From Methanolobus sp. (lineage in GTDB: Archaea; Halobacteriota; Methanosarcinia; Methanosarcinales; Methanosarcinaceae), in NCBI RefSeq assembly GCF_030682845.1, contig NZ_JAUXNK010000052.1, forward strand, positions 1-54,002: 54,002 nt of DNA. The letters are read 5' to 3'. Each line of letters starts with the position of its first letter. Within the stretch, counting starts at the first letter, position 1. Of the stretch, positions 27,244 through 51,400 are shown one piece after another. Below the pieces are notes generated by a model. That model was not told the DNA's origin. It ran no database searches and saw nothing but the letters and a program-made list of their open reading frames with translations. Made by a program: the position numbers and the translations under genes.

Positions 27244-28332
27244 TTATAAATATTCTTCATGAAACATCCTGGCCATAAGCAATGCATAGGATAGCAGAAG
27301 AGGCCCCATTATGATGCCCAGCAGTCCGAACAGGTTGAGGCCGATTATAACTCCGATGATGGACACCAGAGGATGCAGCTGGCCTACTTTCTTGTTTATA
27401 GCAGGGCGTATGAGGTTATCCACCGAGCTCAGGATCATGCCTCCTGCAAACACTCCTGCCGCACTGATATAGTCCTGCTGCAACAACTGGATGATGGTTG
27501 CAGGAACCCAGATAATGGGAGGGCCCAGTGCCGGGATGAATGACAGTATTAAAGTAACGAATCCCCAAAGGAAGGCACCTTCCAGTCCAAAGATCAAAAA
27601 TGTAATAGTGAGAAGTCCCCCTTGAATCACTGCAATAACGCCGGAACTTACAAGGATAGTCCTTACCATAGACCTGAATTCACTTAAGATTTCCATGGTA
27701 TTCCTTTCATTGAAGGGCACTGCGTTATGCAGGCTACGGACGAAGTGTGACTTTTCGCCAATAAACATATAGAATAATACAAAGTACATTATAATGAATT
27801 CGATAAGCCTTTTGCCTGCACTATGGACCGCACTTATAAGCATCTCACTTAGCAAGCTGGCAACGCTTGACGCCAGCTCTATTATTCTTTCCTGTATGCT
27901 GATGTCCGATGGCACCATATCTCGGATGAGGTGTATGGCAATAATACTGTTAGTTTCCAGCAAGGACAGAATGCTTGCTATGTCCCCTACATTCGCCATT
28001 AGATCCTGTACCTCCAGGATTATGATTGTGAAGAGTATATATAGTGGTACGAGGACTACTAAGGCAGTGATGATAATTACCAGTACTGCCGCCAGGCTGG
28101 ATCTCATTCCAAGCCTGTTAATAAATAAAATGTATAGGGGCCTGAAAACAACATATAATATGAATGCACCGAAAAACGCGTTAATATAAGGATATAGTGC
28201 ATAGGCGAGTACTACCGCCAGTATTACCAGGAAAATAGATGACAGTGTTCTCTCGTAAGAGTGTCCTATCTGTTCTCTGGAATCCTCTGTATTAACCAAT
28301 TCCTTCATAGGACCTTTGTGGTTTTTGTTCAC
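27244..28332 (-). CDS. AI-2E family transporter, second of a tandem pair
   Basis: This 362-residue integral membrane protein has the AI-2E/UPF0118 pattern: paired N-terminal helices, a central amphipathic region, then ALGPPIIWVPATIIQLLQ and NLFGLLGIIMGPLLLSYALL near the C-terminus. About eight membrane segments are visible. Relatives export small molecules or ions such as autoinducer-2 or sodium; the substrate is not readable here. Its start overlaps the stop of the upstream paralogue by 4 nt (28329-28332), so the two are translationally coupled. Confidence 0.9.
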   Translation of the reverse strand: MNKNHKGPMKELVNTEDSREQIGHSYERTLSSIFLVILAVVLAYALYPYINAFFGAFILYVVFRPLYILFINRLGMRSSLAAVLVIIITALVVLVPLYILFTIIILEVQDLMANVGDIASILSLLETNSIIAIHLIRDMVPSDISIQERIIELASSVASLLSEMLISAVHSAGKRLIEFIIMYFVLFYMFIGEKSHFVRSLHNAVPFNERNTMEILSEFRSMVRTILVSSGVIAVIQGGLLTITFLIFGLEGAFLWGFVTLILSFIPALGPPIIWVPATIIQLLQQDYISAAGVFAGGMILSSVDNLIRPAINKKVGQLHPLVSIIGVIIGLNLFGLLGIIMGPLLLSYALLMARMFHEEYL

Positions 28333-29399
28333 TTTTCTTGAATAGTAGCGTTTTTGACTTGCTCATAGTGCCCATTCTCCTGCCGGAAAAGATACTCGTC
28401 ATGGAACATTGCCGTCACAAGCAGTACGTATGAAATAAGGAGAGGTCCGATGATAATCCCCAGCAGCCCGAAAAGCTTCAGACCTGTAATGACTCCTACG
28501 AGAGTTACCAGGGGATGAATCTTTCCGACTCTCTTTTGGACAAAGGGCCTGAGAACTTCATCCACAAGGGTGTGGAGAATTCCTCCTATTAGCACCCCGA
28601 CTGCAGTGAACATGTCACCCTGCATTATTTGTAATGCCAGTGTGGGCACCCATATGATTGGTGGCCCTACAACCGGAAGGAAAGCGAGTAACATTGTCAC
28701 GAATCCCCAGAGAAAAGCACCTTCAATGCCAAGGAGAAGGAATGTTACCGTGAGTATGGTTCCCTGTAGGATGGCAATTATTCCAGTGCTTACAAGGATG
28801 GTCCTCACAAGGGAAGTGAACTGTTCCAGTAATCTATTTGTGTTCTTTTTGTTAAAAGGTATGGCGTTTCGAAGGCTCTGTGCAAATGCAGACCTGTCTC
28901 CCACCAGCAGATAGAAGAGTACGAAGTACATTATAATGAATTCGATGAGCCTTTGGCCGATAGTGGATATGGCTCCCACAGCCATGATACTAATTGAATT
29001 GGCCAGACTTGCTATGATTCCCATCAATCTCTCCATCAGGTCTAGTTCCAAGGGCAGTATATTGTTGCTGATGTGATCTATATACTGTATCATCGACCCA
29101 ATGGAAGAATATATTCCGTTGATGTCTTCAAGCACAACCTGTATCTGCAAAAAAACGATGGCTATAAGAATATAGACGGGTATCAGGATGACCAGGATGG
29201 AGATGAAGATCACTGCAAGTGCAGATACCCCTGGTTTAATGTTAATTCTGGTCAAGAACCTGTAAAGAGGTTTGAACACTGCGTAAAGTATGAATGCACC
29301 GAAGAAGGCGCTGATATATGGAAACAATGCGTAAGCAAGCACAATTACCAACAGCACAAGTATCGTCAGTGCCTGCCACATCTTGCTAGAGTGTTCCAT
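28329..29399 (-). CDS. AI-2E family transporter, first of a tandem pair
   Basis: This 356-residue paralogue of the following gene shares many segments (IEFIIMYFVLFY, VRTILVS, GAFLWGFVTM, KLFGLLGIIIGPLLISYVLL). Hydrophobic pairs near residues 10-50 and 60-90, a cytosolic-looking middle and C-terminal helices fit the AI-2E family. The two products could form a hetero-oligomer, which the 4-nt overlap supports; this is inference. ATG 29399 begins MEHSSKMWQALTILVLLVIV. It is transcribed away from the long intergenic region 29400-30054. Confidence 0.9.
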   Translation of the reverse strand: MEHSSKMWQALTILVLLVIVLAYALFPYISAFFGAFILYAVFKPLYRFLTRINIKPGVSALAVIFISILVILIPVYILIAIVFLQIQVVLEDINGIYSSIGSMIQYIDHISNNILPLELDLMERLMGIIASLANSISIMAVGAISTIGQRLIEFIIMYFVLFYLLVGDRSAFAQSLRNAIPFNKKNTNRLLEQFTSLVRTILVSTGIIAILQGTILTVTFLLLGIEGAFLWGFVTMLLAFLPVVGPPIIWVPTLALQIMQGDMFTAVGVLIGGILHTLVDEVLRPFVQKRVGKIHPLVTLVGVITGLKLFGLLGIIIGPLLISYVLLVTAMFHDEYLFRQENGHYEQVKNATIQEK

Positions 29400-30054
29400 A
29401 TATCTCAGATTCTTGCTGATGATATATAATATGTTATATCTGTGAGGTCTTGATAGTTCCTTAGCGTATGATGCCTGTAAAGTGTACTATGGGTGTCTGT
29501 GTGTGATGTGTATGGTTGCACGAGTTTAATGATGTGGATGAGTCGTAGGAAAGGTATGAAAGGTATGAAATGTATGAATAGTATGATTGGATGGTAATTC
29601 CTGCCTGCTGCCTATCTGTCATGCGTTCAGGGCATTGTTCTTGTTTTATCTGCATCATTATTGCATGCTCTCATTATCATCATCGTGATTATATTGTGCA
29701 GTGCAGATATATTTATATATCACAAAGGTATATTGAAATTTGTACTCACATGAGCTGAGTGTAAATATGGCCGGATCATACGCCTGAATTAAGCAGCAGG
29801 TGATTTCGCCGGATGGTGCCAGTCGGTGGTACGATATGCAATCATCAAAAAGCTGAAAATAAATGGTTTGTTTGCAAAAGGAACGTGGGCATCTACAATC
29901 CTCTCTCAAAAACGTATACCACGTTCCACTTCAGCTTTAAGGCGCAAAAGTATAGGCAAGGTCCGGTTTATCTATCGTTCTAACTGTTTTAGCTGGCCTT
30001 CCTAATCCTTTAAATAGTACTCCTCACAGAAACTAATCCGGAGTAGAATCATAT
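29400..30054. other. Long intergenic region with repeats and a possible RNA gene
   Basis: This 655-nt region separates the AI-2E pair from the RDD gene. An irregular 9-11-nt repeat of GGTATGAAA-like units lies at about 29548-29582. A strong TATA-like TTTATATATC lies at about 29709-29718. A large inverted repeat lies at about 29880-29929, and a TATA-like CTTTAAATAGT before the RDD gene at about 30009-30019. Minus-strand frames here have no domain or RBS support. Confidence 0.5.
29740..29930 (+). ncRNA. Candidate structured RNA (unassigned)
   Basis: Downstream of the TATA-like box (29709-29718), a stem GTGCCA/TGGTAC with a 5-nt loop is followed by a larger hairpin. The larger hairpin has perfect 9-bp arms GGAACGTGG and CCACGTTCC (about 29880-29929). 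Spacing from the box would put a start near 29740. I do not recognise RNase P, SRP or a known riboswitch. Stems this size can arise by chance, so confidence is low. Confidence 0.3.
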
Positions 30055-46389: not shown

Positions 46390-46915
46390 AATTCCCTGCG
46401 GATAATTGAATAGGCTCAAAGAGTACGGTTGATTATCTATATTATAATATCTATTTTCTGCAAGAGTGCATGGTACAAACTTTTACTTACTTTTACTCAT
46501 GATGTCTGCACGTTTATTTGATTTGAGAAGATAACTCCGTATCTTCTAAGTTTGTCTAAACTATAGCTTGTGACCTTACTTCCAGGTAAGTATTAGATGA
46601 GCATTTGATTCAATTTCTCGCTCATGCTCTTATTTCCCTTTTGCGCCCGAACAGCATGGGTATGGTCAGTTTCTTACTCCTTATGCCATGTATGCTTATT
46701 TCATACTTGGTGTGATGACTTCATACAGTGATATTCTGTGATTAAATGTATGTATATTTCTTAACAAGCTTGCAGTAAGGCAGTCATGATGTGTATGATT
46801 TCATTTGATGGAACGTGTATGAACTATTATGGCTCTCAAGGGCGCACACTTGTTATATATCCCCTTTTCTATTATACTATAGTAGTTTACATGGCATTCA
46901 AACAGAGGTTTTCCA
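46390..46915. other. Divergent intergenic region upstream of ilvD
   Basis: The 526-nt region contains a perfect 8-bp hairpin AGAAGATA-ACTCCG-TATCTTCT (46526-46547). Near ilvD there is a TATA-like TTATATATCC (about 46853-46862) with AGAGGT before the ATG. There is no supported gene. Confidence 0.55.
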
Positions 46916-48601: not shown

Positions 48602-48700
48602 TGTTCATCATCCTGTCATTTTTTAAAGAATACTAAATCCCTTTTGTTTCTGCATCGTCTGCGACCGTGTGCAACAACTATTTTAAAGTATGTCTACAAA

Positions 48701-48883
48701 ATGAGCTTTATGGAAAGAACAGGTTTATGTTCTATTTGCGGCAGGCCGTCTGGTATGTATACGTGCATGCTTTGCGGATGGCTTGTCTGCGCTAAATGTT
48801 ATGACCACTCGCGAAGCGTGTGCGTGAGGTGTCTGATGATGCCAGCATCCTCTCCGAGCTTCACAGAACAGACTCACTTCTGA
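48701..48883 (+). CDS. Small Cys-rich zinc-binding protein
   Basis: The 60-residue protein begins MSFMERTGLCSICGRPSGMY. It has four Cys pairs or singles (CSIC, CMLC, CAKC, CVRC), consistent with a two-zinc treble-clef or double zinc-ribbon fold. A start at ATG 48710 is also possible. It resembles small archaeal zinc proteins with unknown partners. It converges with the next gene (gap of 4 nt). Confidence 0.8.
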   Translation: MSFMERTGLCSICGRPSGMYTCMLCGWLVCAKCYDHSRSVCVRCLMMPASSPSFTEQTHF

Positions 48884-48887
48884 AAAC

Positions 48888-50291
48888 TCATGGACGTATG
48901 AGGTACTGGTTCCCGCTATCTGCATTGAGTTTTAATACTCCTGCTGAAACGAGTTCGCTTATCTTTGCTTCGATCTCATCTTCGGTGAACTGTTTTGAAA
49001 TCAGGCTCTTTATGATCTCTTTTTTCACCTTTGCACCACGTGGCATGTACATTAGTATATTGCCCTCGAGCTTGCCAGGTTTCGCATTGTTTTGTGCGGA
49101 CTGCCTGGGTTGCTGCTGCACCTGTGGCATCGCGGCAGGCTGAGTTTCCATGAACGGTAAAGACTGTACTTTTTCCTGCACATCCGGTATCAGGGGTGCA
49201 ATGAATGGAAGCATCTTTTCTGTTTTAAGGGGCTCAGATATCTCATGCAGCCTGAACAGGGGCTGTCTTAAGTCTCCCTGAGGTGCTGTCTCGCTTTGGG
49301 TATCAAAGGATGGCATGGCTGGTACCATCTGTCCCATATCTCCTGACATTTTGAACTCCGGCATCACCATCCGAGCCTCCTGTTCTGCCATAGCTTGAGG
49401 TTTGAATTCCGGCATAACAAAGGATTGTTCACTTACTGGCTTTGCCTGTTGCTCGAAAACTGGCATTACCGAAGCTGGCTCACCTGCCGTAACGGAATGC
49501 TGATTGAAAGCCGGCATTACCGGAACCGGCTCACTTATCGGAATAAATTGCTGTTTAAAAGCCGGCATAATGGGAGTTGTGTCGCTGGCAGGAGTAACTT
49601 GTTGCGTTAGCTCCGGGGCCATTGGAATTGATCCGTTTGAATTTATACCCTTTTGCTTGAATTCTGATATTATCGGAGGGACTTCAGGCTCTGCATTTTC
49701 AAGCGGTGCCTGCGCAAAAGTATATTCCGGCTGATTTAAATCCGCGAAAACTGCCGACTGGTCAAATACAGGCTCTTCGGGGGAATTTTGTGCGATATCA
49801 TAGATCATCGTTCCATTAAATGCCTTTCCGGGTGTTGTTTCAGAACTCGTGAATTGTATTTCCTTTTTCTCAAGCTCTATGATCTCTGCTGGGGCATCCG
49901 GTACAACAGTGCACGACGGAGCAATGCTTTTCTCGCTTATAGGAATTATTATTGGCCCAATATCGCCACCAATGTTGCGTGCAAGGGGTCTGCCTTTGTA
50001 TGCTATTAATGAATCCGATGGCAACATGCCTGAAGGTGGTTCCGGATCCAGGTTAAGGGTGATTCTTCCTGTCAGGTGTTTCTCAAATTCAGTAAGTTTT
50101 AAGAATAGATCATCTACGTTTTCCTTGAGTATTGTGAAATCGCGCACCCATGGTTTATTGCTGGTGTCAGGTGTATCTTCAAGCGTTTCAAGCTCTCTTT
50201 CCACCAGTTTTCTGATGAACAGGCTTTTGTTCTCTATCCTGTCAAGCTTTTCGAAAAGCTCATCAGACATACTAATAGTCAGGCGTTTCAT
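48888..50291 (-). CDS. RHH protein with 17-residue repeats and C-terminal winged helix
   Basis: This 467-residue protein has an N-terminal ribbon-helix-helix (1-45: MKRLTISMSDELFEKLDRIE), a coiled segment (about 55-75) and a long disordered Pro/Glu/Gln-rich middle (about 80-390). A C-terminal winged-helix-like domain follows (about 405-467: PRGAKVKKEIIKSLISKQFT; AGVLKLNADSGNQYLIRP). Six MP-x-F motifs recur in the middle, five steps being 51 or 48 nt apart. Two DNA-binding folds joined by a repeat linker suggest DNA bridging or recruitment; this is inference. It is not a known characterised family to me. Confidence 0.85.
   Translation of the reverse strand: MKRLTISMSDELFEKLDRIENKSLFIRKLVERELETLEDTPDTSNKPWVRDFTILKENVDDLFLKLTEFEKHLTGRITLNLDPEPPSGMLPSDSLIAYKGRPLARNIGGDIGPIIIPISEKSIAPSCTVVPDAPAEIIELEKKEIQFTSSETTPGKAFNGTMIYDIAQNSPEEPVFDQSAVFADLNQPEYTFAQAPLENAEPEVPPIISEFKQKGINSNGSIPMAPELTQQVTPASDTTPIMPAFKQQFIPISEPVPVMPAFNQHSVTAGEPASVMPVFEQQAKPVSEQSFVMPEFKPQAMAEQEARMVMPEFKMSGDMGQMVPAMPSFDTQSETAPQGDLRQPLFRLHEISEPLKTEKMLPFIAPLIPDVQEKVQSLPFMETQPAAMPQVQQQPRQSAQNNAKPGKLEGNILMYMPRGAKVKKEIIKSLISKQFTEDEIEAKISELVSAGVLKLNADSGNQYLIRP
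49300..49622 (-). repeat. 51-nt tandem repeats encoding MPxF units
   Basis: Met codons of the MPAF, MPAF, MPVF, MPEF, MPEF and MPSF motifs lie at 49568, 49517, 49466, 49415, 49364 and 49316. There are four exact 51-nt steps and one of 48. Intervening residues vary. A related unit (MAPELTQQ) precedes at 49622, 54 nt earlier. Confidence 0.85.
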
Positions 50292-50484
50292 TGCAATCTC
50301 TCAGGGTGTTACATGTATGTAGATCATATTTGTGTATGAAATCTCATACATATATACTTAATGGAAATATATTTCAGGAGAAGTGAATTAGCAACCTATC
50401 CAGAGAAGTATATATAAAAAAATGTATACAAAAAAAGAGATGCAATTTAATATCAATATATTACATTATGTACAAACCCGCCAC

Positions 50485-51249
50485 TTACATATTCTTCTTA
50501 CACAGGGGACAGGCTTTCCCCTTGGTTGTCTGGATGAAGGAATGCTTAGGAGCAATACACTTGCATAGCGGACAGATATCATTGGTCTTGAATATCTTCT
50601 CAACGGCCTGCAGGTCTGCCTCATAGATGTGTGTGTCCCAGCCGGTAGCTATAAGGGATTCTATTTCATAAGGAAGATTTTGCTCTTTGAAGACTTTTTT
50701 AACCCCTTCCACAATTGCAGGTATGTTGGCAGGGAACCCCCCGAAAGCATCCCATGATCGATAGAGGATGTACAGTCGGGCCTGTTTTTCATCAAGGAGC
50801 TCTATCTTGTAGGCTATCCAGCAGGGCTGATCCTCAAATTTGGGGATGTGGATCTCGTTTTCCCAAAGCACGCCCACATGCCTCCTGGAACCGGGGCGCA
50901 GGTTTGCGACATTGGCACTCAGGGTATTATAAGCCGTTTCCCCATACCTGAAAAGTTGTTTTGCATAGCAGTAATCAAATTTCCTTTTGTCATCCTCGGG
51001 GAGCGAAATATACCATTCTGCATACTCTTCAGTCAATTCTTCCTTATATTTCTTAATAAGGTTCTCGCCGAAAGGAACTGCCTGATTGACCTGGTTGTTG
51101 TTCACGTCCTCAATATATATGGTCGCATGAACCCTTTTTGTCGTTGTTTTGTAATCCGGCTTGTGTTCCTCACCTTTCTTATATATCTCATATATAAGTT
51201 GTGACCATGCAGAAGAAATGCTTTTTGCCTTTATCAGTACAGCTTCCAT
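50485..51249 (-). CDS. Archaeal thymidylate synthase with C-terminal zinc ribbon
   Basis: The 254-residue protein has the archaeal ThyA layout. Catalytic Cys143 is in EDQPCWIAYKIE, followed by RSWDAFGGFPAN (164-175) for dUMP binding and DTHIYEAD (205-212). The C-terminus carries CPLCKC (226-231) and CPLCK (247-251), a zinc ribbon not found in bacterial enzymes. It would methylate dUMP using a folate-like carbon carrier, probably a methanopterin derivative in this group. ATG 51249 has an AAGGAATG stretch upstream. Its own transcript is likely: the gaps are 193 nt and 151 nt. Confidence 0.86.
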   Translation of the reverse strand: MEAVLIKAKSISSAWSQLIYEIYKKGEEHKPDYKTTTKRVHATIYIEDVNNNQVNQAVPFGENLIKKYKEELTEEYAEWYISLPEDDKRKFDYCYAKQLFRYGETAYNTLSANVANLRPGSRRHVGVLWENEIHIPKFEDQPCWIAYKIELLDEKQARLYILYRSWDAFGGFPANIPAIVEGVKKVFKEQNLPYEIESLIATGWDTHIYEADLQAVEKIFKTNDICPLCKCIAPKHSFIQTTKGKACPLCKKNM

Positions 51250-51400
51250 TTTAATCATTCCTTGTAGCGGGCTTGCCACGCAATACGGAACCGGAGGTCA
51301 TCTTAAAAGTTGGTTCTCAGATTGAAAATGTTTTCCGGGTTAATATAATTATCATTATTTGTTTTTTTCATTGATGGCATGGGGGATGTGGTCGATACCC

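Follow-up and report, generated by a model that had tools for sequence, protein, structure and literature searches.

A predicted ribbon-helix-helix/winged-helix protein with a repeat-built linker at the mtx locus of Methanolobus and related archaea

What might be the role of a protein that carries two DNA-binding-type folds, one on each side of an extended disordered linker with a 17-residue rhythm? This question arises from a gene found in a 54,002-nucleotide window, i.e. the whole stretch of Methanolobus DNA that was analysed. The first-pass annotation of that window described a ribbon-helix-helix (RHH) protein joined by repeats to a winged helix, and proposed that it bridges DNA or multivalently binds a partner. 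The ends of the protein are constrained, the position of its gene in the genome is fixed, the 17-residue-repeat linker varies between species, and the promoter carries a conserved inverted repeat. We lean, tentatively and at somewhat less than an even chance, towards a locus-specific regulator derived from a compact RHH-coil-winged-helix protein of 165-200 residues located at the end of the mtx cluster, a group of MtrA/MtrH-like methyltransferase genes.

Table 1. Features of the gene, its product and the candidate DNA sites, with positions in the window.
Feature	Position	Strand	Basis
Whole gene: RHH - coil - repeat linker - winged helix, 467 aa, ATG start	48888..50291	-	ORF and homologues
RHH-like N-terminal domain, residues 1-38, starts MKRLTISMSDELF	50178..50291	-	RHH_1, hhalign, dN/dS
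Long helix/coil, predicted, residues 52-76	50064..50138	-	AlphaFold
Disordered linker, residues 77-402	49086..50063	-	pLDDT mostly <50; dN/dS
Six MPxF motifs, 17-residue rhythm, residues 242-329	49305..49568	-	Motif count, cross-species core consensus
Winged helix, C-terminal, residues 403-467	48891..49085	-	pLDDT 92-94; Rpa2 fold match; dN/dS
Candidate operator GTATGA-N4-TCATAC	50334..50349	.	Upstream sequence comparison, half-site density
Five-half-site cluster, radical-SAM gene/ilvD interval, possible second target	46690..46822	.	Suggestive

The gene is single-copy in its own genome, as the sole further match of a protein search has an E value of 0.22, and family libraries assigned no family to the whole protein. 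Both end domains are under strong purifying selection, with dN/dS values of 0.00-0.31 for residues 1-75 and 0.02-0.17 for the winged helix in eight pairs of Methanolobus species, which include the orthologue L012 of genome G025. The corresponding values for the linker are 0.21-0.52, with an uncertain alignment across the repeats.

The C-terminal domain is solidly predicted to be a winged helix. Its AlphaFold model comprises three helices and a beta wing (H405-414, E421-423, H424-430, H437-450, E454-458 and E461-466), and in a fold search 199 of 1,000 aligned chains reached Z scores of 8 or more. The top matches are entries for the winged helix of P. abyssi Rpa2, with Z scores of 10.5, 10.1 and 10.0, the best of them having an rmsd of 1.8 over 62 aligned residues at 18% identity. 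As unrelated winged helices, including those of MCM5, RNA polymerase III, BlaI, MecI and Z-alpha, score within about 1 Z of that match, the fold alone leaves the function undecided. Foldseek yielded a best E value of 0.027 and no match below 0.001, and a PDB profile search with this domain gave weak matches to a GCN4 construct, Rpa2 (E 0.64) and trigger factor.

Helix 3 is the usual DNA-reading helix of winged helices. Among 18 members of the family this recognition helix is mostly acidic and variable, with a net charge between -5 and +1, and the helix 2 region of 18 members has a net charge of +1 to +5. The conserved stretch of the domain runs from helix 1 to helix 2, with an invariant K, and is basic around GAKVKK. 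Given the Rpa2-like fold and the mostly acidic recognition helix, docking of a protein appears more likely than binding of a second DNA. According to PMC11686378, the winged helix of P. abyssi Rpa2 binds partners and is similarly a short domain behind a disordered segment; the interface delineated there is not the stretch conserved in our family, which counts against partner docking. Rpa2 also differs by its architecture, in which an OB fold precedes the winged helix, whereas disorder precedes it here, and the sequence match is weak. Family libraries gave no OB-fold match in the 467-residue protein. That the protein is an ordinary transcription factor, the RHH and winged-helix domains of which both contact DNA at one promoter, would agree with the closely scoring BlaI, MecI and Z-alpha folds and with the conserved basic stretch, but we deem it quite improbable in view of the mostly acidic recognition helix and of the fact that both the best fold match and the weak profile match point to a partner-binding winged helix. 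The PCNA- or polymerase-like surfaces initially evoked as partners found no support, the only links detected being the resemblance to the Rpa2 fold and the presence of rfcL nearby.

The N-terminal domain is weakly detectable as an RHH domain, from profile matches that are weak but in register. Pfam RHH_1 (PF01402) matches 9 of 14 N-termini with a best E value of 0.0026; the 467-residue member scores 15.3 bits, below the curated cut-off of 20.5, and scans of whole proteins gave no match to the RHH_1/CopG superfamily. In a single hhalign comparison involving 14 domains, the N-terminal strand-helix was in register with NikR-like RHH_1 domains of relatives (probability 71%, P 3.7e-5), while the C-terminal domain used as a control gave 0.6% and P 0.1. 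The alignment was made without duplicates and without L143, which has a stop codon and is in the wrong frame; the off-register L140 was also dropped for this comparison, the score of which falls to 24% (P 8.6e-4) when the off-register row is retained. Modelled alone as a single chain with AlphaFold, the N-terminal domain consists of helices 5-38 and 49-76 without a strand (pLDDT 69), and the full model has a helical N-terminus and a coil (helix 52-76) with middling confidence. A fold search with the strandless model returned no chain, and a PDB profile search with the domain gave weak matches, NikR and ParD being far down the list. The initial proposal of two DNA-binding-type folds is thus upheld by a predicted structure for the winged helix, and by sequence alone for the RHH domain, the strand of which is missing from the AlphaFold model. 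NikR, whose C-terminal domain binds nickel, and other CopG-type proteins resemble our protein in the register of the strand-helix, but the latter falls below the RHH_1 cut-off and has a winged helix in place of the nickel-binding domain.

A protein search revealed matches in 31 of 60 genomes, including that of origin and covering all 27 of the genus. The C-domain profile identified members in 59 of 111 genomes of the family (27/27 in the genus), in 60 of 237 of the class and in 38 of 392 genomes drawn from the phylum, the latter all in the same family, with one match per genome except for G134, which has two. The protein is limited to part of the Methanosarcinaceae and one more distant genome; no member was found for g11, g10, g5 and g9 among the genomes listed without a C-domain match, a statement that covers the listed genomes, with 32 and 157 further non-matching ones lying outside. 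None of the full-length relatives lacks the RHH or the winged-helix domain (the contig-cut L016, L021, L022, L036, L039, L042, L110 and L124 being left aside), and in L117 the two ends are in two ORFs. Lengths range from 165 residues in a protein without repeats to about 700, with 0 to about 20 motifs, and compact orthologues of 165-204 residues have no repeat linker. Genome G134, which belongs to another family, has a 165-residue ORF of the RHH-coil-winged-helix type that follows mtxH by 10 bp and matches the two profiles (A2 6e-11, A3 5.5e-12). It is thus probable that the compact two-ended form came first and that the long linker was added later.

The gene order is rfcL / mtxX - (mtxA - mtxH, or a thymidylate-synthase-like ORF) - RHH/winged-helix gene / ilvD, where we take mtxA and mtxH to be such genes from their MtrA- and MtrH-like sequences. 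In all 15 Methanolobus loci compared, as well as in g25, the immediate upstream neighbour is the thymidylate-synthase-like ORF; in the other genera it is mtxH. One or the other is thus found in every locus where the neighbour is visible, which leaves aside L110, L123, L124 and L129, where the contig ends upstream; in L122 the two genes are separated by an ORF on the opposite strand. The usual neighbour on the other side is ilvD, with L056, L059 and L133 differing. PMC3087415 reports MtxX in all methanogens, with an unknown function, and notes that in some of them its gene forms a unit with mtxA and mtxH.

In the window, the thymidylate-synthase-like ORF (50485-51279, minus strand) has a Cys-rich tail; it matches Pfam at E 8e-10 and scores 77.7 bits, below the cut-off, with the methanogen thymidylate synthase model. 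In Methanolobus and g25 it occupies the place held by mtxA-mtxH in other genera. Between the gene and ilvD, a 79-residue zinc-finger-like ORF (48644-48883, plus strand) with weak HIT/B-box matches is retained in some Methanolobus and g4 genomes. Proximity to the replication origin was considered and rejected, as positions are scattered in one-contig genomes. One such record (L057 1, G028 C1:1) begins exactly at the start codon of the orthologue.

An inverted repeat next to a TATA-like stretch is common to the upstream regions of the gene. In the window this repeat lies directly downstream of that stretch and 43 bp ahead of the start codon (Table 1). The pattern GTATGAN{3,7}KCATAC precedes the gene in 14 of the 16 genomes tested, belonging to three genera (11/13 Methanolobus, 2/2 g4 and 1/1 g23), with a one-base variant in G025 and G002; G036, G030 and G037, also scanned, do not have the gene. 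G091, G031, G028, G073 and G033 carry the gene without the exact site upstream, and the RHH strand residues are the same in G091 and G031 despite its absence. Site-bearing genomes contain 1-10 strand-wise matches to the pattern, with no genome-wide excess over the reversed control, which gives similar numbers. Among 14 distant matches, from 12 regions chosen from a longer genome-wide list, 12 fall within ORFs. The local matches, by contrast, are intergenic, and further ones lie between the radical-SAM gene and ilvD in G000, G026 and G016, and between a 93-residue ORF and rfcL in G001 and G025. The own promoter has 13.3 half-sites per kb, with two or more in 15/15 regions, compared with 7.9 per kb before ilvD and 3.8 per kb elsewhere in intergenic DNA; the latter is enriched too, though less, relative to a Markov expectation of 1.2-1.6, in counts from species that are not independent. 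No enrichment of a wider-spaced half-site pair was detected in the window. The own-promoter site is well supported as a putative footprint, and the ilvD site is a suggestive, possible second target; the RHH/winged-helix protein may bind either of them.

These data also bear on the two-ended DNA bridge, or chromosome organiser, of the initial proposal, in which the RHH and winged-helix domains would hold separate DNA segments, with the linker setting the reach and the repeats conferring multivalence. Such a function would agree with the layout, in which a DNA-binding-type fold stands on either side of an extended disordered linker, with the very basic helix 2 region and with a second intergenic site within about 4 kb in G000, G026, G016, G001 and G025, but the mostly acidic and variable recognition helix, the Rpa2-like fold, the compact orthologues devoid of linker, and the local nature of the candidate site leave the bridge unsupported, and we regard it as distinctly unlikely. 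As the RHH and winged-helix domains at the mtx locus are constant and the linker is variable, a local autoregulator is favoured over a chromosome bridge. RHH proteins often autoregulate in antitoxin and partition modules, and some of the sites cluster near the gene, as would befit a ParD- or SegB-like protein; nevertheless, no toxin or ParA-like gene was recognised among the syntenic neighbours and the core-genome position is fixed, making that assignment very improbable. In the local autoregulator that we favour, the RHH domain would dimerise, and the dimer would bind the inverted repeat adjoining the TATA-like stretch on its downstream side and repress its own gene, perhaps acting upstream of ilvD as well. 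More speculatively, the winged helix may bind not DNA but a putative partner protein; the linker repeats might provide a long reach and many equal docking points, such that a single promoter-bound dimer could gather several copies of the partner.

The six MPxF motifs, which the first-pass annotation had described as almost perfectly periodic, are indeed found at residues 242, 259, 276, 293, 310 and 326 (spacings 17, 17, 17, 17 and 16), and six were reached in 0 of 20,000 shuffles of residues 77-400, the mean being 0.125. At a lag of 17 residues the identity is 0.35; the remaining lags between 8 and 29 give about 0.02-0.12. The 51-nt DNA repeats of the annotation are real but degenerate, as autocorrelation peaks at a lag of 51 nt (identity of 0.50 against a background of about 0.25); Tandem Repeats Finder did not list them. 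In the 23 Methanolobus proteins whose two ends share an ORF, the strongest period of the linker is 17 (20 proteins) or 34 (3 proteins). Thus, the motif count varies between relatives and the spacing, at 17 or its double, is conserved, which supports a selected, repeated motif. From 234 units in 27 ORFs we derived the core FxMP[ED][LF]KPPE, the non-anchor positions of which are conserved at 0.63 (F at -2), 0.59 (K), 0.59 (P), 0.65 (P) and 0.60 (E), the four anchor positions being fixed by the search pattern and their conservation carrying no weight. Position +10 is nearly free (top residue 0.18), and the spacers are homogenised within species and differ between species.

Related motifs in other genera have periods of 16-18, and two g25 proteins have a period of 31. 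The G073 orthologue (L112 4264-6195) harbours a separate, unrelated 18-residue linker repeat (DPLDSPLISDSVISPSLP-like), other, repeat-free g3 proteins have a single SFPELKIPPELL-like copy, and g6 and g8 proteins have no repeat motif. The G015 orthologue (L019 383-2151) is divided into two ORFs inside the repeats, by a slippage frameshift or an assembly error. The repeats might be a mere by-product of slippage and homogenisation, with any flexible spacer sufficing and the motif having no partner. Freely varying copy numbers, repeat-free orthologues, the other periods (18 in G073 and 31 in two genomes of g25), homogenised units and the split G015 gene are in line with this possibility. We nonetheless hold it to be rather unlikely: period 17 is maintained in 23/23 Methanolobus proteins despite their differing spacers, the related core recurs in other genera, down to the single copy of the repeat-free g3 proteins, linker dN/dS is below 1 in 8/8 pairs, and the repeat has no match in other sense-strand proteins of the six genomes searched. 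Because core and period are conserved, working docking motifs are moderately favoured over a constrained spacer, and we read the linker as an elaboration that arose late under selection and may be multivalent. A bolder and unlikely version is a repeat-built multivalent tether of species-tuned length, in which a promoter-bound RHH dimer with up to about twenty equal docking motifs per chain and two winged helices would resemble a small transcriptional scaffold or condensate, gathering at the mtx locus either a partner or further copies of itself.

Archaeal proteins with disordered regions made of amino-acid tandem repeats and containing candidate linear motifs are known from Borg elements, as described in PMC9879509; the present repeats share these traits but belong to a single orthologous gene whose position in the chromosome is fixed, with a genus-wide period, and are degenerate rather than perfect. 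A C-terminal domain appended to an archaeal RHH protein likewise has a precedent. PMC7439475 describes CdrL, a Halobacteria RHH regulator of cdrS-ftsZ2 that binds a single promoter region, and that differs from our protein by a double zinc ribbon end, an ftsZ2 neighbourhood and a distribution confined to Halobacteria. Instead, the 467-residue protein has a cysteine-free winged-helix C-domain and a 17-residue-repeat linker, and its neighbours are mtx genes or the thymidylate-synthase-like ORF and mostly ilvD. The kind of protein is thus known from CdrL, and we know of no precedent for its architecture, its locus or its repeat linker; a search of the open-licence literature on RHH proteins of Methanolobus and Methanosarcina and on mtx found nothing on it. 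In one family, the mtx cluster thereby gains a candidate regulator that is conserved alongside it. Between their fixed ends, the orthologues offer a natural series of lengths (165 to about 700 residues) and repeat numbers (0 to about 20), and the role of a repeat linker in an archaeal DNA-binding protein is therefore directly testable.

Elsewhere in the window, a tandem GTATGAAAG-like array (29545-29586) is built from the same hexamer as the candidate operator and was considered as a target; downstream of it, on the minus strand, lie two similar membrane-protein-like ORFs (27244-29399).
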